From: Bradyrhizobium barranii subsp. barranii
Lineage (GTDB): Bacteria > Pseudomonadota > Alphaproteobacteria > Rhizobiales > Xanthobacteraceae
Reading direction: 5' to 3'
Assembly (NCBI RefSeq): GCF_017565645.3
Contig: NZ_CP086136.1
Coordinates: forward strand, 5,563,501 to 5,627,500
DNA length: 64,000 bases
Positions 6,040 to 63,520 of this stretch are shown here, piece by piece; position 1 is the first letter of the stretch; each line of letters begins with the position of its first letter. The notes beneath the pieces were generated by a model. The model was given only the letters and a program-made list of their open reading frames with translations. It was not told the origin of the DNA and ran no database searches. The position numbers and the translations under genes are program-made.

Positions 6040-7269
6040 TTATCCCACCCTGCGGTCTTGCAGCTGAAACACATTGCTGCCGGTGAGGAATGCGGCCCAA
6101 TCCTTCATTAGAGCCCGTCGCTTTTCCAACTTTTGGCCTCGCTGATAGGCTGCGGTGGTCTCGCTCTTGTATTTGTGGGCCAGCGCGGCTTCGCGTACGC
6201 CGTCCGGATAATCGGTGCATTCCTCCGCCCAAGTCGCGAAGGTTGATCGGAAACCATGGACGGTGACGTGTCCGTAGCCGAGACGATCAAGCACTGCGAG
6301 CATTGCGTTTTCTGAGAATGCTCCGCCATCAGGTCCGGCGAAGATTAGTTCGCCTTCGCGTCCATCGCGCAACTCGTCGAGCACCGCCAAGGCGGGGGCA
6401 GACAATGGAACGTAATGGTCCTGGTCCATCTTCATTCGGTCGCCCGGAATTTTCCAAGTCGAATTTGGCCGATCGATCTCGGACCACCGCCCCTCGACCG
6501 CCTCGTTGGTGCGGCAAGCCGTAAAAATTAGAAAGCGCAACATGGCAGCAGCTCTGCCTGGCGCGCTAGCTAGAAGCCTCAAAAATGCTGGTGCTTCGGC
6601 ATAGGCCAAAGCGGGATGATGCCGAACGACTCGCTTGGAGCGTTTTGGTAATTTCTCGCGCATCTGCCGTGTCAGTTCGGCTGGGTTGCGGAATTCCGGA
6701 TCATCGATATCGACGTTCTTTGCGATGATCGTTTCAATTCGGCCACGGACGCGGTTCGCAGTCTCCCGCTTCTCTACCCAGATTGGCTCCAGCAGATCGT
6801 GGATGTGGCTTGGCTTGATCTCCGGAATCGTCAGTTTGCCGATGGTAGCATAGGCGTAGCGTTTGAGGGAGGACGGCCATTGATCGCGATGCTTCTCACT
6901 CCAGGTCGACCAGTTCGCCCGAATGTAGGCTTCCGCACATTCTTCAAAGGTTGGCAATACCATCTTGGCCACGACGGTTTTTGCCTCGTCGCGTTCTTTT
7001 CGCCGTTCTTGAACGATGTCGATACCGGCAGTGCTGCGATCACCTTTAACACGCAGTCGGGCCGCATCTCGCGCAAGCCGCGCATCCTTTAGCGATACCG
7101 CCTTCAACGAGCCAAGACCGTGCCACCGCTCTTTGCCGTCTTTCCAATATCTATACGACCAGCTTCTCGAGGTCGGTCCTGTGACGATCAAATACAGGCC
7201 GCCGCCATCGGCGTATTTGCCGGGCTTTATGAGGCGCTCTACGTCGAGTGGTCTGAGCCGTCCAGCCAT
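6040..7269 (-). CDS. P4-type tyrosine recombinase, first island integrase
   Basis: About 409 residues. The N-terminal DUF4102-like arm-binding domain (KYADGGGLYLIV) is followed by the catalytic domain with Arg in ACRTNEAVEGRW, HGFRSTFATW (His-x-x-Arg) and LAHKYKSETTAAYQRG (His and nucleophile Tyr). The chosen ATG at 7269 has GGAGGA six bases upstream. A longer frame to 7344 exists. The start lies 161 bp from the att-like repeat at 7430, nearly the same geometry as the second integrase and the tRNA, so it probably integrated an older island into the same tRNA-Ser site. Confidence 0.92.
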   Translation of the reverse strand: MAGRLRPLDVERLIKPGKYADGGGLYLIVTGPTSRSWSYRYWKDGKERWHGLGSLKAVSLKDARLARDAARLRVKGDRSTAGIDIVQERRKERDEAKTVVAKMVLPTFEECAEAYIRANWSTWSEKHRDQWPSSLKRYAYATIGKLTIPEIKPSHIHDLLEPIWVEKRETANRVRGRIETIIAKNVDIDDPEFRNPAELTRQMREKLPKRSKRVVRHHPALAYAEAPAFLRLLASAPGRAAAMLRFLIFTACRTNEAVEGRWSEIDRPNSTWKIPGDRMKMDQDHYVPLSAPALAVLDELRDGREGELIFAGPDGGAFSENAMLAVLDRLGYGHVTVHGFRSTFATWAEECTDYPDGVREAALAHKYKSETTAAYQRGQKLEKRRALMKDWAAFLTGSNVFQLQDRRVG

Positions 7270-7429
7270 TGTTCCTCCAAGGAATCGTCCTCCGAACCCA
7301 CGGTCTTCAGCTACGGTCAGTGACCCGATTAGGAAGAACACCAACGAACTGCGAAGTACAGTCGTTCGGCGTAAGTCACTGAAGTTGCTGTGGAGTTCGA
7401 ACGACCACGAACAGTGGCGAACAATATAC

Positions 7430-10910: not shown

Positions 10911-11369
10911 TCAGCCAATTGTGCTCGTGGAGGAGGCTACCTCCAGGACCTTACTCAGACTTGCAGGAAGGCCCTCATAAAATTTCACGCCACCCGGTCC
11001 AATGCTTTTAAGGCGCGCCGCCAGTACCAACCCGATCAACAGCATAAGCGTCGCAGGCTCAAACACCTGAGCGTGAACCTGAGTGGCGTCTGTTATAGCT
11101 TTCTTCGCCCATTTGCCAAAATCTGGACCTTGGCCCCGTGGGCTGTCTAAGAAAGCCTCCAACATTATACGACACAGCTTCGCAACTTTCGGATCATCGG
11201 ATTTCGGATCAACAATCCAATCCTCAATGGGCCCCTGAGCTTGTCTCACTTTCTCAATAGTTTGAGAAACCTCGAATACTTTCGAGCCAGCGACTTTTAT
11301 CCACTCCTGAACGATGAAATTGGTCGCCCGGATTGCTTGTTCATCGGTCAACTGCGAAACTGAGACCAT
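10911..11369 (-). CDS. Small protein with C-terminal hydrophobic segment, protease-linked
   Basis: A 152-residue protein I do not recognise with certainty. The N-terminal two thirds are helical and charged (MVSVSQLTDEQAIRATNFIV onward). A hydrophobic segment PATLMLLIGLVLAARL near residue 115 precedes GPGGVKFYEG. A GGAGA site sits eight bases before the ATG at 11369. It lies 84 bp downstream of the trypsin-like gene on the same strand, so they are probably one operon. The architecture recalls the small constant partners of trypsin-containing conflict systems (EACC1 or trypsin-co-occurring domains). That assignment is inference. Confidence 0.6.
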   Translation of the reverse strand: MVSVSQLTDEQAIRATNFIVQEWIKVAGSKVFEVSQTIEKVRQAQGPIEDWIVDPKSDDPKVAKLCRIMLEAFLDSPRGQGPDFGKWAKKAITDATQVHAQVFEPATLMLLIGLVLAARLKSIGPGGVKFYEGLPASLSKVLEVASSTSTIG

Positions 11370-11453
11370 GTCGTTTCTCCGCAAGTGAGAGACGGTCCAA
11401 TCTGAGTATCCGAGCATTCTGCGATCATCTAGCGCAGACGATACTATATCTTA

Positions 11454-12430
11454 TCATAAAATTGTTGCCTTCATGTCTCGAAGACAAGCATCTAGAGGAG
11501 AAACGAATGAGTATTGCTCCGTTCCCGCAATAACGAGCCCAATGCCGCAACCATCTGCCGTGTATACGAGCGCGCCGCTATCCCCCGCCCTAGAAAAAGG
11601 TCCCTTATCGCACCGCACGGCTAGAATATTTGTGTAAATGTAGTGCCGCTCAGTAACGGCTTCAGCGGGGTCGCTATTTGCTACGACAATTCGTTGTCGC
11701 TGTAGACCGACTATATCTAAAATACCGCTAGTCAATCCCGTCGTTCGCCCCATCTTGTACACGCGCTGTCCCAATCGATTGGCCACATCTTCACCCCCGA
11801 TCACCCGCTGGATGGGCATAAGGATATTTGGCCGGTCGGGAGACCAAACCTCAGTCACGTCGGGAATGTCACTTGTATCCTCTACCTTAACCAGCGCTAT
11901 ATCTTCACAGCAGAGGTAATTGTCGGACGCGCATTGAAAATGAGGTAACAACTTAAAGTTTTGCAGCGTACCAATCTCTTCATTGAGCGTTCTGCGCCCA
12001 TCTGGATCCCCCGGCGAAAGGACTTTGTCGCCTCTTCGTGATCTATTATTCCTGCCCAGGACGTGCGAGGCGCTAATTACTCCAAGCCAATTGCCTTCGG
12101 TGCAACGAACGAAGCAGCCTAGGGTGCCAGGATAACCAGACATATGGCCTATTGATGCTCCGGCTTTGCGATCGGGTAGCGACGGAGATTTTGGCAAATG
12201 CGATGCCCTCGCGTCCAAAGAATGAGCTTCCGCCGTAAGGCGAGTGACAAAAACTGCCTCAGAACTGCGAACTATCTCTTGAACCAGGGGATCTGCATCA
12301 TTTTCTGCTAGGATGATGACTTTAAATTCGCCGTGACGGCGGGTAATTCCCCACGAAATTTGATTGTCAGCAGGTCGCCCGGCTAAAATTGCTGGCATTG
12401 CTGCATTAAGCGTCTTTAACCGTTCAGCAA
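11454..12430 (-). pseudogene. Trypsin-like serine protease, 3' part (split by IS256)
   Basis: Joined to 13839-13926, this gives an uninterrupted 354-residue protein (88 plus 977 coding bases make 355 codons). The chymotrypsin-fold triad is visible: His in VISASHVLGR, Asp in CCEDIALVKVED and Ser in SRAGDSGALVYT. About 120 residues precede the protease domain and may be a regulatory region. There is no signal peptide, so it is cytosolic. It lies downstream of two metallopeptidase genes on the same strand. As found it is disrupted near residue 30. Confidence 0.85.
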
Positions 12431-12439
12431 TTTCAGTTC

Positions 12440-13838
12440 GAGCTATGGCGGAATCTGGGTGATGACGGTGTGAGGAAGGCGGCGTATCGAGGCGGGTGAC
12501 GAGCCTGCCAGAACCTCTCGAGGAGAGCGATACGCCATGACCGAGACTACCAATGTTCTTGCTTTCCGTCAGCCGTCCGCGGTTGATGATCCACTGACCG
12601 ATATCGTTCGTGCCGGCGCGCGGGACCTGCTTGCCAGGGCGATCGAGATCGAGGTTGGCGCGTTTCTGGCCAGCACGGCCAATCTGACGCTGCCCGACGG
12701 TCGAGCGCGCCTGGTCCGACATGGGCACGGTCCGGTGCGCGAGATTGCGACCGGCATCGGTCCGGTGGAGGTCGCTCGTCCCAAGGTCCGCGACCGCGGA
12801 GCGAGCGGGCCAGGCGACCGCCTCCGCTTCAGTTCGGCAATCCTGCCGCTATGGGCGCGGCGGACGAAGAGCCTGGATGCCTTGATCCCGGTCCTCTATT
12901 TGCGCGGCATCTCGACCGGCGACTTCCAGGAGGCGCTCTCGGCGCTGCTCGGCAAGGATGCGCCGAACCTGTCGCCTTCGGTGATCGCCGGCCTGAAGGC
13001 CGATTGGCAGGTCGAGTACGAACGCTGGCAGAGACGCGATCTGTCGGCGCGTCGCTATGTCTACATCTGGGCCGATGGCGTGTACCTGCAGGCCCGCATG
13101 GAAGATCACAGCGAATGCATGCTGGTGCTGATTGGCACCACGCCGGAAGGCAAGAAGGAGCTGATCGGCTTCCAGGTCGGCGTGCGCGAGAGCGCGCAGA
13201 GCTGGCGCGAACTCCTGATCGACCTGCGGCAACGCGGGTTACGGATTGCCCCGCAACTCGCCATCGGCGACGGCGCCCTCGGCTTCTGGAAGGCACTGGA
13301 CGAGGCCTTTCCCGGCACGCGGCACCAACGATGCTGGTGCCATAAAGTGAGCAACGTACTCGACAAGGTCGCCAAATCCGTGCAGGGCCCCATGAAGAAC
13401 GACCTGCGGAACATCTATCTGGCCCCACACCGGGCCGAAGCTGAAACCGCGATCGACGTCTTCGTCGAGAAATACCACGTCAAATACGGACGTGCGGTGG
13501 AGTGCCTGATCAAGGATCGCCATGCGCTGCTCGCCTTCTTCGACTTCCCTGCTGAGCACTGGATCCACCTACGCAGCTCGAACCCGATCGAGAGCGTCTT
13601 CGCCACGGTGCGCCACCGAACGGTGCGGACCAAGGGATCGCTGTCGCAACAAACTGCGAAGCTGATGGTGTTCAAGCTCATCGACGCCGCATCGAAGACC
13701 TGGCGGCGATTGAAGAGCACGAACCAGTTGCCGAAAGTCATCGCCGGTGTAAAGTTCATCGACGGAATCGAAGTCATTCCGAACACTGAAAGCCACGCCG
13801 CCTGATCAGGCCGCGTCACCCAAAATCAGCCATAGCTC
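12440..13838 (+). mobile_element. IS256-family element (1399 bp)
   Basis: The ends match as inverted repeats: GAGCTATGGCGGAATCTGGG at the left, against the inverted right end GAGCTATGGCTGATTTTGGG. The 9-bp duplication TTTCAGTTC lies at 12431-12439 and 13839-13847. It is oriented opposite to the protease gene it splits. Confidence 0.95.
12537..13805 (+). CDS. IS256-family (mutator-type) transposase
   Basis: A complete 422-residue transposase. The DDE residues are visible in YIWADGVYLQ, LAIGDGALGFWKAL and SSNPIESVFATVRHRT. The mutator-type HQRCWCHKVSNVLDKV motif lies between the second Asp and the Glu. An N-terminal DNA-binding region with GHGPVREI precedes the core. It is intact and probably functional. 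Confidence 0.95.
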   Translation: MTETTNVLAFRQPSAVDDPLTDIVRAGARDLLARAIEIEVGAFLASTANLTLPDGRARLVRHGHGPVREIATGIGPVEVARPKVRDRGASGPGDRLRFSSAILPLWARRTKSLDALIPVLYLRGISTGDFQEALSALLGKDAPNLSPSVIAGLKADWQVEYERWQRRDLSARRYVYIWADGVYLQARMEDHSECMLVLIGTTPEGKKELIGFQVGVRESAQSWRELLIDLRQRGLRIAPQLAIGDGALGFWKALDEAFPGTRHQRCWCHKVSNVLDKVAKSVQGPMKNDLRNIYLAPHRAEAETAIDVFVEKYHVKYGRAVECLIKDRHALLAFFDFPAEHWIHLRSSNPIESVFATVRHRTVRTKGSLSQQTAKLMVFKLIDAASKTWRRLKSTNQLPKVIAGVKFIDGIEVIPNTESHAA

Positions 13839-13926
13839 TTTCAGTTCCTACGGCACCCATATAAATGCGCAGAATGTCGCGCGTTGCATCAACTAGATAC
13901 TTGTGTGTTCCGGTGTGCTCTTCCAT
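13839..13926 (-). pseudogene. Trypsin-like protease, 5' part
   Basis: It starts at ATG 13926 (MEEHTGTHKYLVDATRDILR) with GGGGTGAC as ribosome binding site. It reads through one target copy into TEIAERLKTLNAAMPAI of the 3' part without frame loss. The promoter is expected within 13927-14075 or upstream in the operon. Confidence 0.8.
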
Positions 13927-14075
13927 CTGATTGTCACCCCGCTTGTTGAACCGGGCTTCTCAGTTGGGGTCGTGATCATAGTGCCTATTTTCTTCGCAAC
14001 GCAATGGGATTCGCAGTCGCGGCTCACGAACCATCTATCGTCGGACCGACGCGCTTCTCGACCCAAAGATCCCCG

Positions 14076-14387
14076 TCAGGCCGTGACCACAATTTCGATC
14101 TGCTGACTTTGCAGGCGACCTTGCCATGGATCTCCCCTGAGCACCTCGATGCGAGCCTGCCCGGATTGAACCGCACGAAACAATATGTTGGTTGGCGGTC
14201 CGACCGGGCTCAGTACACGGCCATCGTCCGAGAGTACGCCAGTTGAGAAGACCCCCAGCAGTTCGACGGTCGTTTCGCCTTCCAAGAGATGACCACCGCT
14301 TGCTCCAAACATCAGTGCGTCTCCCACCCGCACGTGCAACACGGGCGGGAGGTCCTGACACGCCTGGATCTCGACGAGGTGCGCCAA
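14076..14387 (-). CDS. Small beta-rich protein downstream of metzincin
   Basis: A 103-residue ORF starting at TTG four bases after the metzincin stop, so probably translationally coupled. The sequence is rich in predicted strands (VLHVRVGDALMFGASGGHLL, then TTVELLGVFSTGVLS and ILFRAVQSGQARIEVL). There is no signal peptide and I do not recognise the family. Its place between three proteases suggests an inhibitor, substrate or processing partner, which is speculation. Confidence 0.6.
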   Translation of the reverse strand: MAHLVEIQACQDLPPVLHVRVGDALMFGASGGHLLEGETTVELLGVFSTGVLSDDGRVLSPVGPPTNILFRAVQSGQARIEVLRGDPWQGRLQSQQIEIVVTA

Positions 14388-14391
14388 AGCG

Positions 14392-15396
14392 TTAAGGTAC
14401 CAGTTCCTCGTCCACCTCCACATCCTCCGACGGGGACCATTCGTCGGCGAGGCCCATTTGAGCTTGGAGCGACGATGCACCCTCAGATGAAACCTTCGGG
14501 TAGATCTGTCCCGCGAAGGCATAGTCGGTGGCATTGATGTCCGAGCCTCCCCGGATCGGCTGACCGTCTTTGGTAATCGATCCCGGAAGTTGATAGCACA
14601 TGATCGAATCTTGGTCCGGTGGGGTGGCCATGATTGAGTCCTGGCTGAGCGGTGTCAGCACCTGCTGGTCCACCATCTCACGAGACCACCCCTGTGTGCG
14701 CAGGAAGAAGTCGTAGGCCTTCTGTGGATCTATGAGATCAACCAGCTCCTCGCGCATGTGTTCATGCGGGAAGCCGAGCGTGTGTCCGGCTTCATGACGC
14801 ACCACACGATGGAATTCGCTGTCCTCCGTATTCATGGTGAAACCCTGCAGGTTCAGCGTCGGGCGATTACTGGGAATGTGCAGGATGTCGGTCCCGAGAT
14901 AGGACCAGTATCCTGCTTGATTCCGCGAGATGCGCACCTTCCCCACACCGCGGGTCTCCACGAATGAGATCCCTGCGGTTTGATTCCAGGCATTCATGTG
15001 CTGAATGATCCGTCGGCGAAGATCGCTTGGTCCGCCATCCAGGAAGCTGACCGTGAGCCGGCGCTGCTGCGGGCCCCAATACTTACCAACCAGAACTGCA
15101 ATTGCGGCCGGAGAGAGTACCAGGCCGCGTGCCACGGAGCCGATGGCACCGAAGCTAACTCGGTTCATAGGATTGATGGATGTTGCAGTCTTCGCCGCCT
15201 TTTCGACTAGACGGCCGGGCAGTTGCTTAATCGAACAATGCGCGTTTTTTCCTCCCGCGTGGTTATGTGGGCGCCGCGCCGTCTCGCCATGCGGCTTATC
15301 GTCCTCGTCCACATACCGTCCGGTATCCGCGGCTGCCTGAGCCACATCTGCGATTCTCATCAACGCTTGGCGGAGTTTCTGTTCGCTATCGCTCAT
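14392..15396 (-). CDS. Metzincin-type zinc metallopeptidase (M12-like)
   Basis: A 334-residue protein with the exact metzincin zinc motif HEAGHTLGFPHEH at residues 201-213 and a Met-turn SIMCYQ near 286, as in astacin/M12 peptidases. Residues 108-200 form the upper catalytic half (RRLTVSFLDGG, HMNAWNQTAGISFVET). The N-terminal 100 residues, with a hydrophobic patch near 85-103, could be a pro-domain or membrane contact. There is no clear signal peptide. The ATG overlaps the stop of the upstream gluzincin (ATGA) and AAGGAGA lies eight bases upstream. Confidence 0.88.
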   Translation of the reverse strand: MSDSEQKLRQALMRIADVAQAAADTGRYVDEDDKPHGETARRPHNHAGGKNAHCSIKQLPGRLVEKAAKTATSINPMNRVSFGAIGSVARGLVLSPAAIAVLVGKYWGPQQRRLTVSFLDGGPSDLRRRIIQHMNAWNQTAGISFVETRGVGKVRISRNQAGYWSYLGTDILHIPSNRPTLNLQGFTMNTEDSEFHRVVRHEAGHTLGFPHEHMREELVDLIDPQKAYDFFLRTQGWSREMVDQQVLTPLSQDSIMATPPDQDSIMCYQLPGSITKDGQPIRGGSDINATDYAFAGQIYPKVSSEGASSLQAQMGLADEWSPSEDVEVDEELVP

Positions 15397-17363
15397 GTCA
15401 TTCTCCTTCCTGTTGTTGGTTGCTGGGCACCGACTGTTCCACTAAAGAGATGGCACATGCTCGATCGCGACAGTTGGTGGTGGCTGCCACGGCTCGTCCA
15501 TCCCTTTGAACCACCTTTACCGTTGAGATGGTCTGCTTGCGCTTCTATTCGGCGTTGATCCGTCACGCACTTGCGAATTACGTAGCGAACGCTGCCGTCT
15601 GGGCCGAGAATGACCGTTGAGCCGCCGAAGACCTCTCTGAACGTTCCCGAGCTCCCCTTGCACCAACGCCGTTGGGTGATCTCGGCGACTGTATCGAAGG
15701 TGACTTGCCGGTCCGGGCCGACGCGACGAAGAGATCGAATAGAACCAACAACTGCAGGATCGATGTGATCGCCGTTTAGTTGCATGTCGCCCGGCAGAGC
15801 GCAGCCGAACGCGCGTGCGTATCCTGGTCGCATGACGTAAGACCCGAGAGCTTCGGCCTGTCGGCGCAGTTCGGTCTCGTCGGCTGCTCGCCCCGGATCG
15901 CCCGCGAAGCGCAGCCTTTTGAAGTGCAATGCTTCGATCGGCTCCATGCCCTTCTTGTCAGGCGGTCGCCATAGCAGAGAATCCTCCGCTAGATCCGGCA
16001 CGTCATCGGCGTAGATGCGACGACGGGCGAACGAATCGATGATTGCCTCGCGATAGCCGAAGGGGTCGTCCTGAACGAGATCGAAGTCCGCAGTGATAAC
16101 TGCTCGCAGATATTCGCCAAAACAGAGGTCGAACGGCGGGCAGTAGTCGATGGCTCGTATGCAAATGGAAAGAAACTGTGATGCCAATGTGCTTGCCTGG
16201 TCGGCGAGGATCTCGCAAAGCTCGGAGCCTGGAGCCTCACCGGGAGCCAGACGTGCCAGGCGAATGAATCGCTTTGTCTTCCGTTGAAGTATCGTGGCGA
16301 ACGCTTCGAAGATCGCCGTTACCAGAAGCGAACCGCGCTCGTGCGGCTCGTCCCCGACTTCGTCATATCGTCGGACGCTGCCCTCCTTGTCTTGGCCAAG
16401 TCCCGCAGGATCGATGGCTGATCGCAATGGTCTGCACGAACCTGTGGTATGTCCGAATTGGGTAGCGATTGACAGAAGCACCTCATCGGGCGTGACCCCT
16501 GACCGCTCAATCGCGGCACGAACAACATCCGAATACGAGAAATGCATGAGTATTGCCACGAGGTCGGCAAAACCTTCGTGAAAGGCCGAGACATCCGGAT
16601 GGGTCGGCAGTCGAAAGCGCGGCCGAAGACCGTCCAGCAACGCGTGGGTCATCTCGTGCACAATGATGTCGTGTGAGAGGCTTGTGAACACCCGACCGCC
16701 GGGACGATTTCGTCCCTGCACACTACCATCGGCAGCATAGTAGCCGAACTTGAGTTCCCCAGCTGATGAATCGTAATAGGCATTGCGGCCGCAGAAGGCC
16801 TGTGGCCGAATTCTAAGCTTTGCATAAGCTTGGCCACGCCTGGAGCGAAAGCCCCAGCACGGATCACGTCCCAGCGCGCGCCTGAAGACATCGTACGTGG
16901 ACGCGCAGACCGCGTAGACCATCTGCTGCCGGAACTGAGGGTCGGACGGCGAGGGGGGGCGCCCATTTTCGATCAGGATTCGAGGATCATCCAAGTCGAC
17001 GGGCCCGTTGAACTGCTCCGTCGTCTCATCCCAGTCGACCACTTCTAGGACGCTGCCTTCTAGAGCGTTGCGCTCGCACATCGAGCGCAATCGCTCAAAT
17101 GGGGCATTTAGCACCGCAACAGCGCCATCCTGCCGACTTGCAGCTGGATCGAGCGTATAGATTCTGAGCGGCCGATGGATTGGATCCTGATGCGTCCTTT
17201 GATACGGCTGCATAGAGGCAGTCGCTAAGAAAACCGGATCCACCACGAAATAGTTGGCCGATGCAGTCAGCGCACGCTGTACTTTGCCAATCTTCGGGCG
17301 AGGTACACTCGCTGCCATCTCAGGCTTCACGCAATGAAGGGGTGGATGCGCCTGAATACCCAT
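15393..17363 (-). CDS. Gluzincin-type zinc metallopeptidase
   Basis: A 656-residue protein with HEMTHALLDG at about residues 236-245 and the third-ligand helix FHEGFADLVAI near 262, the M4/gluzincin pattern of HExxH plus a distal Glu about 24 residues on. Other conserved-looking parts are the preceding GGRVFTSLSHDIIV and the C-terminal beta-rich region with QVTFDTVAEITQRR. There is no signal peptide, which is unusual for thermolysin relatives and argues for an intracellular role. ATG 17363 has GGGGAG eight bases upstream, and a GTG at 17381 is an alternative. It is the first gene of the protease cassette. Confidence 0.85.
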   Translation of the reverse strand: MGIQAHPPLHCVKPEMAASVPRPKIGKVQRALTASANYFVVDPVFLATASMQPYQRTHQDPIHRPLRIYTLDPAASRQDGAVAVLNAPFERLRSMCERNALEGSVLEVVDWDETTEQFNGPVDLDDPRILIENGRPPSPSDPQFRQQMVYAVCASTYDVFRRALGRDPCWGFRSRRGQAYAKLRIRPQAFCGRNAYYDSSAGELKFGYYAADGSVQGRNRPGGRVFTSLSHDIIVHEMTHALLDGLRPRFRLPTHPDVSAFHEGFADLVAILMHFSYSDVVRAAIERSGVTPDEVLLSIATQFGHTTGSCRPLRSAIDPAGLGQDKEGSVRRYDEVGDEPHERGSLLVTAIFEAFATILQRKTKRFIRLARLAPGEAPGSELCEILADQASTLASQFLSICIRAIDYCPPFDLCFGEYLRAVITADFDLVQDDPFGYREAIIDSFARRRIYADDVPDLAEDSLLWRPPDKKGMEPIEALHFKRLRFAGDPGRAADETELRRQAEALGSYVMRPGYARAFGCALPGDMQLNGDHIDPAVVGSIRSLRRVGPDRQVTFDTVAEITQRRWCKGSSGTFREVFGGSTVILGPDGSVRYVIRKCVTDQRRIEAQADHLNGKGGSKGWTSRGSHHQLSRSSMCHLFSGTVGAQQPTTGRRMT

Positions 17364-18617
17364 AAAACGACTCCCCAGCACAATTCAGCTAGTAGAGCGC
17401 GATTCTTTTGGCGTAGATTTCACCCGGGTGTCACCGAAACATATTTTGTACGAATGGCGACCCAAGTTTATCGACATCGCACGTCAAAACGGCACGCAGC
17501 TATTGCAACGTCAGTGGTCGCCGGTACGAGAACTTGTTCACTCTACAAGCTTTAATAAGCCAACCGGCGTATTTCAGCAGCCTGACTCAGCTTCATTTCT
17601 TGGCAAGAATGGCGTACCCGCCAATGTATCCGCGAACGTATTGCTAAAGGTAGAGTATGCTCGCGCAGTCAAGGCACTCACTCACTCCGCAGCTGTGCGG
17701 CCACGGCTGCCCTGCGCGGGTCGAAGGTCACTAATACTGCCCTACGACGGATTTCGTAGTTTAGCCCAAATCTCCACCGGGAGGTAGTACTTGTCTCTAG
17801 GACAACTTGTCGCGCAATGGTTGCCGCACTCATGAGACGCTCGCGGCTTCGAGCCCAGACAATTCGACGCTGAGGGCATTTTGTTCTCGCGGCAGTGCGC
17901 GGAATTGAGCCCAGAATCAAGAACGGCGTTTGGGCGCCCGGCATTGGCTTTCGAGAGTTTGCATTGCTAGGACGCGGGTTTGAAAATTGCCCTATCAAGC
18001 GCACCGCGGTCTTCGTGTATCTTGTTAGACATTTCGTCAGTCGGTGATGATGCGGCAGTGGTCTATCGAAGGACTCGCTGCGCCCCCGACGACCCGCGCT
18101 TAATCTGCCCTGGCGTTCTGGAACTATGTCCCGCGATCTCTCGTATCGCGAGCAGCATGATGGCAAACGCCAAGAAGCGTGAGGACACGTCGAGAGACAA
18201 GATTGCGCAGCGCCAGCCGCCCAAACAACAAACTCTTTGGGTATAGCACACATCCACCAACCGTTGCTTGGGGCCAGAAGCAGAAGTTGAGGCGCATCCT
18301 GATTAGGTCTAGCGATGTCTTCCTGCAGCCGCGCTGCCATGCGCAGGCCTTGGCGGCCGTCTCTTCGGCGAAATTATGTTTGGCCATTGGATAGGCCTCT
18401 ATGCCGTCTTTTGGCTAGGCGCCAACAGCTCGCTTGGGCTTGAATGGAAGACTTGAAACCGGGCTTCCGACAAGCGTGTCAACGGATGTCCGCCGGGGCT
18501 CGTTAAGGTTGAACCTAATTCAGACCTGGGAGAACAAAGAAGGGTGTGGAGGTGGTAGGCGTTCGAGCGCTTACACAAAAGACTTCGGCGCGTCTCAGAC
18601 AAGTCTGGAGGACCGCT
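17364..18617. other. 1.25-kb region without a secure gene
   Basis: It holds several overlapping frames on both strands. The best candidates are a plus-strand GTG frame from 17428 (MSPKHILYEWRPKFIDIARQ) and a minus-strand fragment around 18100-18215 with a membrane-like SSRFLAFAIMLLAIREIAG. Neither has a convincing start and full domain. It should contain the cassette promoter near 17400-17500. Confidence 0.4.
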
Positions 18618-21990: not shown

Positions 21991-22641
21991 CTACGCACCG
22001 CGCTTGAAGCGTATAGGCATCCAGAACTGCCGGAGGGCCTCGACGGTTGCTGGAATGTTGCGCCAGGCGTTTTGGATGATGGGCTGCGTTCCCAGCGTGC
22101 GCCGGGCCGGGGGTAGCAAGGGTCGACCGGCGTCGTCGATGCAATGGACCAAGATCGGCCGCAGCATAAGGTGTTCGGTTCCATTCGGGGGGAGAAGCCG
22201 CGACCAGACGAGAAGCCGAAGCTTCATGACGGCGTAGAAGCCCATGCACCAGGGCTGCGGGTCGACTTCGCCGTCCGGTGATCGCACGAACAGCGGCTCG
22301 AAGCTCTCCGGTCTCGTCGACAGCGTCTCGCTGATAGCGTTGTGGCGCATCAGCGTGGCGGCGATTGCCGAGAACTCCTCGGTGTCGTGATTGAAGGCGT
22401 CGGGATCTACGCCGAGGAGCGGGCACACCCATTCCTCGGACGCCATCGAGACCGGCCCGGCGACGACCGCGGCCACCGCGCCATCGAGCATGGAGAGCGA
22501 CGTCGCCCGCGGATGCCGAAGCGTCGGCGACCTGGCGCGCTTGCTGATCCATTGCCCGAGCCGTTCGAACGACATGGCATAGTCCGCCATCGTCGTCTTG
22601 CGTGCTTTTCGCGTTCCCCGCCCTTGCTTCGGCTTCGTCAT
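21991..22641 (-). CDS. UPF0149-type passenger protein of IS66 copy 2
   Basis: This is a 216-residue product, residue for residue the same as the one at 2219. It is encoded after tnpC with overlapping stop and start. Confidence 0.75.
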   Translation of the reverse strand: MTKPKQGRGTRKARKTTMADYAMSFERLGQWISKRARSPTLRHPRATSLSMLDGAVAAVVAGPVSMASEEWVCPLLGVDPDAFNHDTEEFSAIAATLMRHNAISETLSTRPESFEPLFVRSPDGEVDPQPWCMGFYAVMKLRLLVWSRLLPPNGTEHLMLRPILVHCIDDAGRPLLPPARRTLGTQPIIQNAWRNIPATVEALRQFWMPIRFKRGA

Positions 22642-24188
22642 GCCACGGCCCGCTTTTCGGCTTCGCGTGCGGCCTTCCAGTTCCAGGCCAGAAGTTCGTG
22701 AAGCTGGTTGGTCTTCGTGGCGCCGCTCACCATGCGATCGAGAACGTCGACGAGATACGCCTCGGGGTCGAGGCCATTCAATTTCGCTGTGTTAAGAAGC
22801 GAAGCGAGTATCGCCCAGGTCTCGCCCCCGCCTTCGTCACCACTGAACAACGAGTTCTTTTTTCCGATCGCAATTGGCCTGATCGATCGTTCGACCGTGT
22901 TGGTGTCCGGCTCGAGCCGCCCGTCATCCAGGAACGTCGTCAGGCCCTGCCAGCGTTCGAGCATGTAGTCGATCGCCTTGATGAGCGTCGAGCGGCGGGA
23001 GATCCCGTCCTTCACCGCGATCAGACGGGCCCTCAACGCCTCCATCAGCGGCTTCGTCTCGGCCTGTCGCGTCGCGCGGCGTTCCCCAGCATCGAGACCG
23101 CGGATCCTCTCCTCGATCGCGTAGACGGCCGCAATGCGCTCGATGACCTCCGCGGCGAAGGGTGAGTTCGTCGTCTTGTGCACCCTCACGAAGTTGCGGC
23201 GCGCGTGAACGAGACAATACGCCAGCTGGATCTGGCCCGACATCATCGCATCGCCCGCCAGCGAGGCGTAGGCGGCATAGCCGTCGACTTGCAGCACGCC
23301 TTCGAAGCCGGCTAACTGCGCCACGATCTCCTTTTTGCCGCGACCACCTGCGAACACGTAGGCGACCGCCGGCGGCGCCGGCCCCTTCCACGCCCGATCG
23401 TCCGTCGCGTGCGCCCAGAACTGGCAGATCCTCGTGCGGCCGCGTCCCGGATCGAGCACTGGCATCGGCGTCTCGTCGCAGAACAGCCGCTCGAAGCCGT
23501 GCATAGTCTTCAGTTGCAGATCGTAGAGGCCCCTGACCAGCCACGCCGCGCTCCCCATCCAGCGCGCCAGCGTCTGACGGTCGACGACGACACCCTGACC
23601 CGCCAGGATCTGCGTCTGGCGATAGAGCGTCGATTGCCAGGCATATTTGGCCGCGGCGATATGCGCGATCAGCGCCGTCGTTGCCATGCCGCCCTCGACG
23701 AGCCGCGCCGGTGCCGGGGCCTGGACAATCGGGCCCTCACAGGAGCGGCAGGCGTATTTTGGACGGATCGTGCGGAGCACACGCAGCCACGCGGGAACCC
23801 GATCGAGCGCTTCGCTGCTCTCCTCGCCGATCCGATGCATCTGACCCGTGCAGCACGGGCACAGCGTGGACGCCGGCTCGATCACCCGCTCGACCCGAGG
23901 CAGATGCGCCGGCAGCGCGCCGATGTTGCGCTTCGCTTTGCGCCGCTCCGGCCGCGGCGCGTCCGGTTTGTCGTCATTGGCCGGGAGCTGTGAGCCGGCG
24001 GTCCGTTCCAGATCAAACGCGATCTGTTCGGCGCAGACGATCGCCGCGCGCTCCGATCGTGCGCCGAAGATCAGGCTCTTCAACGTGGCGATCTCTGCGC
24101 GCAGATCATCGTTCTCGCCTTCGAAAGCCAGCACCATCTCGGCAAGAGCCGCAGGGTCAGAGGGGAGATCTTCGGGGCGAAGCGCCAT
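22638..24188 (-). CDS. tnpC: IS66 transposase TnpC, copy 2
   Basis: A 516-residue DDE transposase identical to copy 1, with the zinc-binding cysteines and the DETPMPV, VDGYAAY and NTVERSIRP catalytic segments intact. Confidence 0.95.
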   Translation of the reverse strand: MALRPEDLPSDPAALAEMVLAFEGENDDLRAEIATLKSLIFGARSERAAIVCAEQIAFDLERTAGSQLPANDDKPDAPRPERRKAKRNIGALPAHLPRVERVIEPASTLCPCCTGQMHRIGEESSEALDRVPAWLRVLRTIRPKYACRSCEGPIVQAPAPARLVEGGMATTALIAHIAAAKYAWQSTLYRQTQILAGQGVVVDRQTLARWMGSAAWLVRGLYDLQLKTMHGFERLFCDETPMPVLDPGRGRTRICQFWAHATDDRAWKGPAPPAVAYVFAGGRGKKEIVAQLAGFEGVLQVDGYAAYASLAGDAMMSGQIQLAYCLVHARRNFVRVHKTTNSPFAAEVIERIAAVYAIEERIRGLDAGERRATRQAETKPLMEALRARLIAVKDGISRRSTLIKAIDYMLERWQGLTTFLDDGRLEPDTNTVERSIRPIAIGKKNSLFSGDEGGGETWAILASLLNTAKLNGLDPEAYLVDVLDRMVSGATKTNQLHELLAWNWKAAREAEKRAVA

Positions 24189-41122: not shown

Positions 41123-42739
41123 CCCGTCCTATTCGTGAGAGTGCGGCTTTTGGGCCCGATTGATGCGGCCGCACATCTTGTCTGACGAGGCGCACAGGAT
41201 TGCCTTCGGCTTTTCGCCGCCTGACGACCGGTACTTTGCAACGCGCTTGAGGGATGGGTTGGGCGAACGGGGGCGGACGCCCCGCCGGTCAAGGACCGAG
41301 CGGCAGCAGCGCGCCGGGCAAGCCGCAGATCAGGTCGGCTTCGGGACATGCCGCGGCAAACGCAAGGCGAATGCGGCTCGTGGTCTCGACGACACGGGCG
41401 GCGATTTTCAAGAGCCGAAGACGCAGCGTCGCGAACTCGGCAGCGGCCAATTCCCGGGCTTTGGGAATGGCGTCGCGCACGGTCAGCATCAGCCAATAAG
41501 CGGCCGTATGGAGCACGAGACGGACCTGGTTGGCGAGCGCCGAACGGCAGCTGGTGCGATCGGAGGCGAGCTGCGTCTTATGCAGCTTGATCAGATTCTC
41601 GGCTTGGCCGCGCGCGCAATACAGGCTGTCGTAGATCCACTCGGCCGAGCCGACATCGAGGCTGGTGACGACGAAGCGGATGTCGAGGCCGAGCATCGTC
41701 GCCTCAATACGGGCGACAGTGCGCCGTTCGCGATCCCAGGACTTTGCCTTGTGGCGCGTCTCGGTATAGCCACGCAGAACCGGCAGGTTCTCGATGGCGC
41801 GTCGCGTGCGGATGTCGTCGGCGACCTCGTCGACTTTTCTGGCGAGAGGCTTGGTGCCGGACAGACCGAAGATGTAGTCGATGCCGTTGGTCTCGCACCA
41901 CGCCATGGCCTCCGGCCGGGCATAGTGCCCGTCGCCACGGAACGTAATTTGCGTGTTGTGCCATCGCGTCCGGATATGCCGTACCAGGCGGCGCAGATGG
42001 GCACGCACCTCGACGCCGCCCGGCGTCTTGCCGGGCCGCAGCACGACGGCCACGGGCCGGCTCTTCTCCGTGTCGTAGACGTGGATCGGCAGGAAGCAGC
42101 GTTCGTCATAATGAGCGTTGAACAGCGAGAGCTGCTGATGGCCGTGGACGACGTCGCAGGTATCATCGATGTCGAGCGTGACGGATGCCGGCTCGTGGGG
42201 GTAGCTATCCATCCATGCGTCGACCAAAATGTAGGTCAGCCGGATCACGTCGCGCAGGCGCGGAGCATTCTCCAGCCGCGACAGCGTCGGCTGGGAACAC
42301 AAATCCCGGCCCGTGTCCGGCAGCCGTCCGCAGGCCAGTTTGAATGCCGGATCGGACCTCAGATGATCGAGGTCGTCGGCGTCCTCGTAGCCGCAGCAGA
42401 TCGCGAACATGCGAGCGCGGAGCATATCGACCAGGCTGTGCACGACCCGCGTCGGATCGCGCCGATCCGGGAACACCCGGGCCAGATTGTTGGCCAAACC
42501 GAGACGCCGCTCGGCCATCGCCAGAAGCATCACGCCCCCGTTCGAGGTTAGGCGCCCACCATCGAAGGCAGCTGTGACTTTCTTGGCGTGAACGGCTGGA
42601 AACGAGAAGGGCGGAATCGTATCGTCGGTCATGGCGGGCGTGGCGTTCGCGGTTGGAGGTGATGGGGTTGGCTTCGCAACCGAATCCTACGCCGCATCAG
42701 CGCTTTACCCCTCAGGCGCACTCTTACGAATAAGACGGG
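41123..42739 (-). mobile_element. IS1380-family element, copy 2 (1617 bp)
   Basis: Inverted relative to the copy at 9054, with the same length. A perfect 4-bp duplication CTAA lies at 41119-41122 and 42740-42743. The pair forms inverted repeats 30 kb apart, near the two island ends. Confidence 0.94.
41289..42632 (-). CDS. IS1380-family transposase, copy 2
   Basis: A 447-residue transposase, the same as copy 1 except for His in SYPHEPAS. All catalytic segments (LDIDDTCDVV, FRGDGHYAR, ARGQAENLIK) are present. Confidence 0.93.
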   Translation of the reverse strand: MTDDTIPPFSFPAVHAKKVTAAFDGGRLTSNGGVMLLAMAERRLGLANNLARVFPDRRDPTRVVHSLVDMLRARMFAICCGYEDADDLDHLRSDPAFKLACGRLPDTGRDLCSQPTLSRLENAPRLRDVIRLTYILVDAWMDSYPHEPASVTLDIDDTCDVVHGHQQLSLFNAHYDERCFLPIHVYDTEKSRPVAVVLRPGKTPGGVEVRAHLRRLVRHIRTRWHNTQITFRGDGHYARPEAMAWCETNGIDYIFGLSGTKPLARKVDEVADDIRTRRAIENLPVLRGYTETRHKAKSWDRERRTVARIEATMLGLDIRFVVTSLDVGSAEWIYDSLYCARGQAENLIKLHKTQLASDRTSCRSALANQVRLVLHTAAYWLMLTVRDAIPKARELAAAEFATLRLRLLKIAARVVETTSRIRLAFAAACPEADLICGLPGALLPLGP

Positions 42740-46119: not shown

Positions 46120-46209
46120 TGGCGGAAGGGGTGGGATTCGAACCCACGGTACCCTTGCGGGCACGCCGGTTTTCAAGACCGGTGCCTTAAACCACTCGGC
46201 CACCCTTCC
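46120..46209 (-). tRNA. tRNA-Ser(UGA)
   Basis: A 90-nt gene on the minus strand. It has acceptor GGAAGGG/CCCTTCC, discriminator G and encoded CCA. The anticodon loop CTTGAAA gives UGA, and the long variable arm (GCCCGCAAGGGT region) and T-arm GGTTCGAATCC are typical of serine tRNAs. Its last 14 bases (46120-46133) recur at 7430 as the island attachment core. Confidence 0.96.
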
Positions 46210-61322: not shown

Positions 61323-62873
61323 ATGGCGCTTCGCCCCGAAGATCTCCCCTCTGACCCTGCGGCTCTTGCCGAGATGGTGCTGGCTTTCGAAGGCGAGAAC
61401 GATGATCTGCGCGCAGAGATCGCCACGTTGAAGAGCCTGATCTTCGGCGCACGATCGGAGCGCGCGGCGATCGTCTGCGCCGAACAGATCGCGTTTGATC
61501 TGGAACGGACCGCCGGCTCACAGCTCCCGGCCAATGACGACAAACCGGACGCGCCGCGGCCGGAGCGGCGCAAAGCGAAGCGCAACATCGGCGCGCTGCC
61601 GGCGCATCTGCCTCGGGTCGAGCGGGTGATCGAGCCGGCGTCCACGCTGTGCCCGTGCTGCACGGGTCAGATGCATCGGATCGGCGAGGAGAGCAGCGAA
61701 GCGCTCGATCGGGTTCCCGCGTGGCTGCGTGTGCTCCGCACGATCCGTCCAAAATACGCCTGCCGCTCCTGTGAGGGCCCGATTGTCCAGGCCCCGGCAC
61801 CGGCGCGGCTCGTCGAGGGCGGCATGGCAACGACGGCGCTGATCGCGCATATCGCCGCGGCCAAATATGCCTGGCAATCGACGCTCTATCGCCAGACGCA
61901 GATCCTGGCGGGTCAGGGTGTCGTCGTCGACCGTCAGACGCTGGCGCGCTGGATGGGGAGCGCGGCGTGGCTGGTCAGGGGCCTCTACGATCTGCAACTG
62001 AAGACTATGCACGGCTTCGAGCGGCTGTTCTGCGACGAGACGCCGATGCCAGTGCTCGATCCGGGACGCGGCCGCACGAGGATCTGCCAGTTCTGGGCGC
62101 ACGCGACGGACGATCGGGCGTGGAAGGGGCCGGCGCCGCCGGCGGTCGCCTACGTGTTCGCAGGTGGTCGCGGCAAAAAGGAGATCGTGGCGCAGTTAGC
62201 CGGCTTCGAAGGCGTGCTGCAAGTCGACGGCTATGCCGCCTACGCCTCGCTGGCGGGCGATGCGATGATGTCGGGCCAGATCCAGCTGGCGTATTGTCTC
62301 GTTCACGCGCGCCGCAACTTCGTGAGGGTGCACAAGACGACGAACTCACCCTTCGCCGCGGAGGTCATCGAGCGCATTGCGGCCGTCTACGCGATCGAGG
62401 AGAGGATCCGCGGTCTCGATGCTGGGGAACGCCGCGCGACGCGACAGGCCGAGACGAAGCCGCTGATGGAGGCGTTGAGGGCCCGTCTGATCGCGGTGAA
62501 GGACGGGATCTCCCGCCGCTCGACGCTCATCAAGGCGATCGACTACATGCTCGAACGCTGGCAGGGCCTGACGACGTTCCTGGATGACGGGCGGCTCGAG
62601 CCGGACACCAACACGGTCGAACGATCGATCAGGCCAATTGCGATCGGAAAAAAGAACTCGTTGTTCAGTGGTGACGAAGGCGGGGGCGAGACCTGGGCGA
62701 TACTCGCTTCGCTTCTTAACACAGCGAAATTGAATGGCCTCGACCCCGAGGCGTATCTCGTCGACGTTCTCGATCGCATGGTGAGCGGCGCCACGAAGAC
62801 CAACCAGCTTCACGAACTTCTGGCCTGGAACTGGAAGGCCGCACGCGAAGCCGAAAAGCGGGCCGTGGCATGA
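61323..62873 (+). CDS. tnpC: IS66 transposase TnpC, copy 3
   Basis: A 516-residue DDE transposase identical to the other copies, catalytic segments intact. Confidence 0.95.
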   Translation: MALRPEDLPSDPAALAEMVLAFEGENDDLRAEIATLKSLIFGARSERAAIVCAEQIAFDLERTAGSQLPANDDKPDAPRPERRKAKRNIGALPAHLPRVERVIEPASTLCPCCTGQMHRIGEESSEALDRVPAWLRVLRTIRPKYACRSCEGPIVQAPAPARLVEGGMATTALIAHIAAAKYAWQSTLYRQTQILAGQGVVVDRQTLARWMGSAAWLVRGLYDLQLKTMHGFERLFCDETPMPVLDPGRGRTRICQFWAHATDDRAWKGPAPPAVAYVFAGGRGKKEIVAQLAGFEGVLQVDGYAAYASLAGDAMMSGQIQLAYCLVHARRNFVRVHKTTNSPFAAEVIERIAAVYAIEERIRGLDAGERRATRQAETKPLMEALRARLIAVKDGISRRSTLIKAIDYMLERWQGLTTFLDDGRLEPDTNTVERSIRPIAIGKKNSLFSGDEGGGETWAILASLLNTAKLNGLDPEAYLVDVLDRMVSGATKTNQLHELLAWNWKAAREAEKRAVA

Positions 62874-63520
62874 CGAAGCCGAAGCAAGGGCGGGGAACGC
62901 GAAAAGCACGCAAGACGACGATGGCGGACTATGCCATGTCGTTCGAACGGCTCGGGCAATGGATCAGCAAGCGCGCCAGGTCGCCGACGCTTCGGCATCC
63001 GCGGGCGACGTCGCTCTCCATGCTCGATGGCGCGGTGGCCGCGGTCGTCGCCGGGCCGGTCTCGATGGCGTCCGAGGAATGGGTGTGCCCGCTCCTCGGC
63101 GTAGATCCCGACGCCTTCAATCACGACACCGAGGAGTTCTCGGCAATCGCCGCCACGCTGATGCGCCACAACGCTATCAGCGAGACGCTGTCGACGAGAC
63201 CGGAGAGCTTCGAGCCGCTGTTCGTGCGATCACCGGACGGCGAAGTCGACCCGCAGCCCTGGTGCATGGGCTTCTACGCCGTCATGAAGCTTCGGCTTCT
63301 CGTCTGGTCGCGGCTTCTCCCCCCGAATGGAACCGAACACCTTATGCTGCGGCCGATCTTGGTCCATTGCATCGACGACGCCGGTCGACCCTTGCTACCC
63401 CCGGCCCGGCGCACGCTGGGAACGCAGCCCATCATCCAAAACGCCTGGCGCAACATTCCAGCAACCGTCGAGGCCCTCCGGCAGTTCTGGATGCCTATAC
63501 GCTTCAAGCGCGGTGCGTAG
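62870..63520 (+). CDS. UPF0149-type passenger protein of IS66 copy 3
   Basis: A 216-residue product identical to those at 2219 and 21991. Confidence 0.75.
   Translation: MTKPKQGRGTRKARKTTMADYAMSFERLGQWISKRARSPTLRHPRATSLSMLDGAVAAVVAGPVSMASEEWVCPLLGVDPDAFNHDTEEFSAIAATLMRHNAISETLSTRPESFEPLFVRSPDGEVDPQPWCMGFYAVMKLRLLVWSRLLPPNGTEHLMLRPILVHCIDDAGRPLLPPARRTLGTQPIIQNAWRNIPATVEALRQFWMPIRFKRGA

Follow-up and report, generated by a model that had tools for sequence, protein, structure and literature searches.

Phage-defence pro-nucleases of the metallo-beta-lactamase (MBL) fold, switched on by partner proteases of the trypsin or caspase kind, are described in the part of PMC12799240 available to us, which also mentions, unnamed, protease families beyond these two. 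From the main text of that paper the words 'metalloprotease', 'metallopeptidase' and 'gluzincin' are absent, and no description of a gluzincin-MBL or gluzincin-metzincin unit was found in the literature surveyed; the supplement of the same paper (fig. S2, other protease families) could hold one, and there is a real chance that gluzincin-MBL relatives already stand in its supplementary tree. Here a gluzincin-metzincin unit is reported from a stretch of 64,000 nucleotides (the window; positions 5,563,501 to 5,627,500 of contig NZ_CP086136.1) of the 11.4 Mb genome of Bradyrhizobium barranii subsp. barranii. As judged by sequence comparison, the conserved unit is made up of three genes, encoding a gluzincin, an astacin-type metzincin and a protein of 103 amino acids (aa), and it may be an intracellular self-destruct module.

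The three-gene unit and its proteins

On re-reading of the sequence, the cassette genes were all found on the minus strand at the coordinates of the initial annotation (Table 1), and the layout it had described for the unit was confirmed: the genes of two zinc metallopeptidases are joined by an ATGA overlap, and the TTG-started 103-aa open reading frame (ORF) begins four bases past the metzincin stop. Its statement that no signal peptide is obvious also agrees with the hydropathy profiles, since no N-terminal hydrophobic stretch was present in the four intact proteins (Kyte-Doolittle; no signal-peptide predictor was used); the maximum mean value was 0.28-0.84 for 19-residue windows starting in the first 25 residues.

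A scan of genome contigs gave 10 gluzincin loci, among them three close relatives (L027, from Bradyrhizobium agreste, L028 and L029) that carry the gluzincin, metzincin and 103-aa genes in the order of the window; no match to the two further genes of the cassette, a trypsin-like gene and a 152-aa ORF, was found at these three. Similarity to the window DNA extends over 14075-17820 (L027), 14079-17403 (L028) and 14076-17287 (L029), and no further, so that the shared block ends at the 103-aa stop. L028 and L029 have parts of their flanks in common and the L027 flanks match neither; the unit therefore stands in three contexts, the window included. In a sample of 190 genus genomes, four were found to have a 103-aa family member, always 7-10 bases past a metzincin match, and all four hold the whole unit. 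The gene was missing from G467, a genome marked as the same species as the window, and the metzincin of G467 is only 35% identical to that of the window. The unit genes are, by their codon substitutions, under purifying selection: the ratio of non-synonymous to synonymous substitution rates (dN/dS) between window and L027-L029 was 0.13-0.17 for the gluzincin, 0.05-0.14 for the metzincin and 0.18-0.28 for the 103-aa gene. A HerA-like ATPase gene lies convergent with the cassette at L029 (L029:11319-12839), and its C-terminal part was also seen at the contig end of L028; the L029 ATPase gave a PADLOC match (E 1.4e-14).

Gluzincins of the M4 type are recognized by the zinc-site motif HExxH...E with a downstream Asp. 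The six catalytic-type residues H236, E237, H240, E263, D267 and H341 were identical in 17 of 17 aligned members, that of the window included, and HExxH-x(17-30)-ExxxD was kept in all 46 strong loci. A locus was counted as strong if its gluzincin match was at or better than 1e-50; the 46, all outside the window, came from the genome-contig scan (10), an order search (17), a phylum search (2) and plasmids (17 contexts out of 50 plasmid records). Loci with matches weaker than this (L054, L055, L121, L122 and L132-L137) were dropped, and the weak matches L020-L023, L026, L107 and L109 stood outside the flank survey. Six of the dropped loci (L132-L137) are viral contigs with distant gluzincin relatives (E 3e-23 to 5e-33); they were excluded from the counts because they fall short of the 1e-50 line and gave no MBL match, and the neighbours in the two examined, L133 and L135, were unlike those of the gluzincin operons. 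The family is large: relatives at E<=0.001 numbered 6296 among 8000 scored candidates, most of them now annotated as hypothetical protein or peptidase M4. The M4 label was assigned on the basis of the motifs and the names at the source. The Peptidase_M4 profile matched 5 of the 17 aligned members weakly (best E 0.038) and did not match the window gluzincin, for which Pfam gave sub-threshold matches only; a Foldseek search of its predicted structure against the PDB gave no match (best E 0.21), its sequence gave chance matches only among PDB entries, and NCBIfam returned only flagellinolysin (E 0.23). No Pfam trypsin or caspase match was obtained for the window gluzincin or metzincin.

Astacins are recognized by the zinc motif HExxHxxGxxHE and a Met-turn. 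The metzincin contains both, as HEAGHTLGFPHE and SIMCY, scored above the cut-off for Pfam Astacin (E 1.9e-6) and matched myroilysin over the catalytic domain (E 2.3e-28). Cys54, upstream of the catalytic domain, and the zinc-binding residues were invariant in 11 of 11 aligned metzincins (alignment without L082, L083, L085 and L088-L091 and without the propeptide of myroilysin), which suggests a latent zymogen held by a cysteine switch. The four metzincins paired with a 103-aa gene have an acidic C-terminal tail that those of L032 and L033 lack. For the window metzincin all NCBIfam matches fell far short of the cut-off (beta-glucuronidase AbsR1, E 9.7e-12, 44.5 vs 650 bits; LegP, E 0.11). Other metzincin relatives were seen in different company. 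In two genus genomes an astacin metzincin is fused to a CHAT protease in a protein of ~900 aa (L082:6049-8748 and L083:6267-8969). A metzincin gene adjoins a caspase-like gene in L084 (L084:7964-15485) and in L085-L087, with the neighbour confirmed by Pfam in L084 and L086 and without match in L087; L084 also encodes a protein of 1799 aa in which Trypsin_2, Trypsin and PLDc_2 domains are combined, and the genome that holds L085 is marked as being of the same species as the window.

For the 103-aa protein a beta sandwich was predicted (predicted local distance difference test 91.7), with EhICP2, an I42 protease inhibitor, as the top Foldseek match in the PDB (E 1.4e-4). Of 31 family members, 12 were weakly matched by Pfam Inhibitor_I42 (best E 0.026), and the window protein itself had no Pfam match, to I42 or otherwise, so that the model and these matches lend weak support to an I42-like, inhibitor-like fold. 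A PW-containing loop near the C terminus may resemble the RPW loop of chagasin.

Partner genes of the gluzincin in other genomes

In the strong loci the gluzincin gene has varied neighbours. An MBL-fold gene lies directly downstream in 38 of 46 and a caspase gene directly upstream in 4; a metzincin gene was found within 2.5 kb in 7, three times with a 103-aa gene and no MBL and four times with an MBL. In 11 loci the gluzincin carries a fused S8 domain (confirmed by Pfam in 3 of 3 tested), and in only one was no partner of these kinds present. Genes were called by a simple length and GC filter, and start positions are approximate except in the window. Thirteen of the 46 loci served as seeds for the MBL model; an MBL was found in 25 of the other 33 and in none of 26 comparison loci (10 metzincin and 16 trypsin loci, not a random set). 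All four caspase loci were seeds of the caspase model. The MBL partner is probably a pro-nuclease: one tested partner matched Pfam Lactamase_B, the two tested against PADLOC (L033 and L138) matched its LmuA, Avs1a and RTasMBL models, and THxHxDH is kept in 36 of the 38 partners, the remaining two being split ORFs. Two length-variable stretches break the MBL alignment, which would fit gating insertions.

All four caspases were confirmed by Pfam Peptidase_C14. In two of these loci (L030:4896-7817 and L031:5035-7905) the gene directly upstream of the gluzincin encodes an Amidase_2 domain with a C-terminal caspase, a possible sensor of wall fragments joined to a protease. In L032 and L033 a small protein with an N-terminal hydrophobic stretch is encoded between the MBL and metzincin genes (L032:11077-11535 and L033:11074-11463).

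In a tree of 47 gluzincins, the four of the window type and the four of the caspase type formed one clade (support 99/99), with the window type nested among the caspase types (96/91 and 95/89); the placement of L044 in this clade is unsure because of its long branch. Gluzincins with a metzincin neighbour were found in three separate parts of the tree, namely the window type, L032/L033 and L049/L050; in L049 and L050 the metzincin gene precedes the gluzincin gene. The gluzincin-type MBL was not detected in the four window-type genomes, save for a partial match in the window's own (E 5.2e-4), or in two caspase-type genomes (G099 and G226). The MBL and the metzincin plus 103-aa protein therefore look like alternative partners of the gluzincin.

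Known defence genes accompany some of the relatives. Within 6 kb of the gluzincin, HamA/HamB, a cyclase of the cyclic oligonucleotide-based antiphage signalling system (CBASS) or a SAVED effector was found in 3 of the 17 plasmid loci (L138, CBASS cyclase and HamA/HamB; L144, HamA/HamB; L145, CBASS cyclase and SAVED effector). Further loci carry a SIR2 gene (ThsA/LmuA-like; L141), a ThiF gene (E1-E2-like; L143), a JAB gene (L140) or, by annotation only, a ThiF gene (L146) and a JAB-type gene (L149); none of these gene names occurred in the other nine plasmid loci, for which the gene table is incomplete; one of the nine, L154, encodes a caspase-family protein that PADLOC did not match. Of the 17 plasmid loci, 6 contain annotated patatin genes and 3 contain DUF2235 genes. 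In the window itself, none of the five cassette proteins matched PADLOC at E<=1.

Proposed function and competing explanations

Our preferred explanation, held tentatively and at a little less than an even chance, is that the three-gene unit works inside the cell as a suicide or anti-phage module set off by a protease. It builds on the linkage of the genes, their intact catalytic residues, the conserved cysteine of the metzincin, the weakly supported inhibitor-like fold predicted for the 103-aa protein and the modular partners of the gluzincin. The metzincin would be made as a latent zymogen with the propeptide cysteine on the active-site zinc, and the I42-like 103-aa protein would act as a second lock by binding one of the two proteases. 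A trigger would activate the gluzincin, which would trim the metzincin propeptide, and the freed metzincin would destroy cell proteins and so halt phage spread; in most of the relatives surveyed, the slot beside the gluzincin is taken by an MBL-fold protein, a probable pro-nuclease, or by a caspase. This order, from trigger through gluzincin and metzincin to death, is proposed because a metzincin, probably latent, and an inhibitor-like protein occupy the partner slot in the window lineage, and the unit may be an unrecognized variant of a self-destruct module because the gluzincin elsewhere usually adjoins a nuclease-like or caspase gene. Activation order, inhibition, lethality and phage defence are parts of the proposal that we infer. 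The suggestion of the initial annotation that a multi-protease unit might have an immune or self-regulating role is kept, with immunity inferred, for the first three genes, to which linkage, partners and the defence neighbours of relatives apply.

A wider reading, possible but rather more doubtful than not, is that gluzincins run a third class of protease-triggered immune module with an exchangeable partner, which would be an MBL pro-nuclease (whether or not an S8 domain is fused), a caspase, or a cysteine-switch astacin with an inhibitor-like gatekeeper. If true, protease-activated phage defence would widen from trypsins and caspases to a class of zinc proteases with more than 6000 relatives among the scored candidates, and the gluzincin family would gain a function. 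In the window lineage a zymogen and an inhibitor would then make up a proteolytic cascade on the principle of animal protease cascades, and bacteria would be shown to have a proteolytic module that joins a latent zymogen to an inhibitor-like partner.

Among the alternatives, a toxin-immunity pair for bacterial competition survives best, although we consider it unlikely: one or both proteases would reach neighbouring cells and the 103-aa protein would protect the maker. Protealysin and emfourin, a protease and its small inhibitor encoded by one operon, set a precedent for which a role in interbacterial competition is proposed in the accessible part of PMC9505478; beside the cassette, however, no secretion or delivery genes were recognized by eye, and the partners of the gluzincin elsewhere are MBL and caspase genes that at times stand among phage-defence genes.

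Reversed or mutual activation, with the metzincin as activator, the gluzincin as effector and one of them held by the 103-aa protein, is rather unlikely. Linkage is silent on activation order, the metzincin gene comes first in L049 and L050, and the inhibitor-like gene lies directly 3' of the metzincin gene. The conserved upstream cysteine, on the other hand, sits in the metzincin, and it is the gluzincin that stays constant while partners vary, a pattern biased by the collection of loci by gluzincin.

It appears improbable that these genes, carried on a mobile island, serve routine turnover of proteins inside the cell or the maturation of one particular host protein. Purifying selection is compatible with any function and no trigger or sensor is visible, but the patchy spread over the genus, with absence from G467, marked as the same species, the exchange of MBL, caspase and S8 partners and the carriage of gluzincin relatives on plasmids speak against it.

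A five-gene cascade that includes the trypsin-like protease and the 152-aa protein is very improbable, even though the five genes are closely spaced on one strand and the metzincin relative L084 sits with caspase and trypsin-PLD genes, given that the trypsin-like gene is split by an insertion sequence (IS), that no gluzincin, metzincin or 103-aa match was found in any of the 16 fetched trypsin loci, that two draft genomes (G375 and G367) hold the trypsin and cassette families on separate contigs, that the 152-aa gene was detected in only one of 190 genus genomes, its own, and that the DNA similarity to relatives ends before both genes. The five-gene unit was rejected on the ground that the trypsin gene and the 152-aa gene are either unlinked or unique. 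The GDSG sequence named by the initial annotation is thus present, ending at 11454, but not as an intact gene, and the cascade of three catalytic folds is not supported; the 152-aa ORF with a C-terminal hydrophobic segment is real, but a conserved membrane-linked partner it is not. Of the five genes that had been joined into one unit, gluzincin, metzincin and 103-aa genes recur together, and of the two small genes singled out for a neighbourhood survey only the 103-aa gene proved linked.

The break in the trypsin-like gene is caused by an IS with 23-nt inverted ends and a 9-bp duplication on either side, the transposase of which matched Pfam Transposase_mut (E 2.1e-58). Relatives of the trypsin piece were found in six other genomes among 297 of the order and in nine other genomes among 190 of the genus. 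Sub-threshold Pfam matches were to Nal1_C for the trypsin piece (E 0.0049) and to PEP-CTERM for the 152-aa protein (E 0.011).

Table 1. Features of the cassette and of the adjoining interrupted gene (window coordinates)
Feature	Position	Strand	Evidence
Gluzincin (HExxH...ExxxD, M4-like), 656 aa, proposed activating protease	15393..17363	-	HEMTH and downstream ExxxD
Myroilysin-like astacin metzincin, 334 aa, upstream Cys54, proposed latent effector	14392..15396	-	HEAGHTLGFPHEH, Pfam Astacin
103-aa beta-sandwich protein, I42/chagasin-like, proposed inhibitor	14076..14387	-	TTG start, predicted fold
ATGA overlap, gluzincin stop/metzincin start	15393..15396	-	
Probable N-terminal remnant of trypsin-like gene, outside conserved unit	13848..13926	-	By eye; no Pfam match
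Mutator/IS256-type IS splitting trypsin-like gene	12440..13838	+	Transposase 12537-13805; 23-nt inverted ends
Target-site duplication TTTCAGTTC, copy 1	12431..12439	.	
Target-site duplication TTTCAGTTC, copy 2	13839..13847	.	
Trypsin-like gene, C-terminal part (GDSG), apart from conserved unit	11454..12430	-	Relatives unlinked
152-aa ORF, hydrophobic C-terminal segment, not conserved	10911..11369	-	Own genome only

Island surroundings and comparison with known systems

The cassette is flanked by two integrase genes inside an IS-rich island. One integrase gene adjoins a tRNA-Ser gene (window:44821-46209, with the tRNA at 46120-46209), and this site is likely to be the island boundary; the second lies at 6043-7344. 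IS activity in the window is regarded as heavy because of the repeated transposase-like ORFs: one ORF pair is present in three copies (window:2219-4416, 21991-24188 and 61323-63520) and a DDE_Tnp_1_4 gene in two (window:9161-10504 and 41289-42632). The same island encodes a protein with a HEPN/Toprim N-terminal domain (window:35926-37179), ~19 kb from the unit, and a PIN_12 protein (window:31913-33130). Five window ORFs outside the unit, the HEPN/Toprim-type gene among them, gave no PADLOC match. On the plus strand a 265-aa ORF (window:19210-20007) with a HERYH (HExxH-like) motif lies ~1.8 kb from the gluzincin start; it had no Pfam match above cut-off and no PADLOC match. Tandem tyrosinase and LodA-like (lysine epsilon oxidase) genes follow just past the tRNA gene (window:46621-51072).

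Several described systems share single traits with the unit. As far as the available part of PMC9505478 covers it, protealysin-emfourin is the nearest precedent for an intracellular M4 protease whose inhibitor is encoded in its own operon: an M4-type protease and a small inhibitor gene form one operon there, matched in the window by tight spacing, whereas in the window a second zinc protease lies between the two and the small protein has an I42-like predicted fold without Pfam match. Myroilysin, an M12A astacin with a cysteine switch (PDB 5GWD; PMC9848320, available in part), resembles the metzincin in zinc motif, Met-turn and upstream cysteine; it is secreted, whereas the window metzincin starts without a hydrophobic stretch, has a longer N-terminal segment and ends in an acidic tail. 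The I42 inhibitors chagasin and EhICP2 may share the fold predicted for the 103-aa protein, with weak profile matches in its relatives, but their known targets are cysteine proteases, of which the window unit has none. IPI of B. subtilis is a small Ig-like protein reported to inhibit an intracellular protease, the intracellular subtilisin; according to the accessible part of PMC3901451 its strand order differs from that of I42, and its gene is not in an operon with its protease.

In the multi-peptidase conflict systems of Kaur et al. 2020, caspase, trypsin, S8 and rare metallopeptidase domains are likewise brought together in operons; these are other systems, and a gluzincin-MBL or gluzincin-metzincin unit is not among the passages available from PMC7159879. 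The MBL pro-nuclease/protease pairs (Hachiman, AVAST, Lamassu and defence-associated reverse transcriptase (DRT) systems) and the caspase-nuclease (canu) loci in the available part of PMC12799240 share with our relatives the protease gene beside an MBL gene, and the gluzincin-MBL relatives are mobile and sometimes near defence genes, as are those pairs. The protease is a gluzincin instead of a trypsin or caspase, and the window unit differs further in having a metzincin and a small protein and no adjacent MBL. By this analogy, the gluzincin-MBL pair would be a natural counterpart of the MBL pro-nucleases activated by trypsins and caspases.

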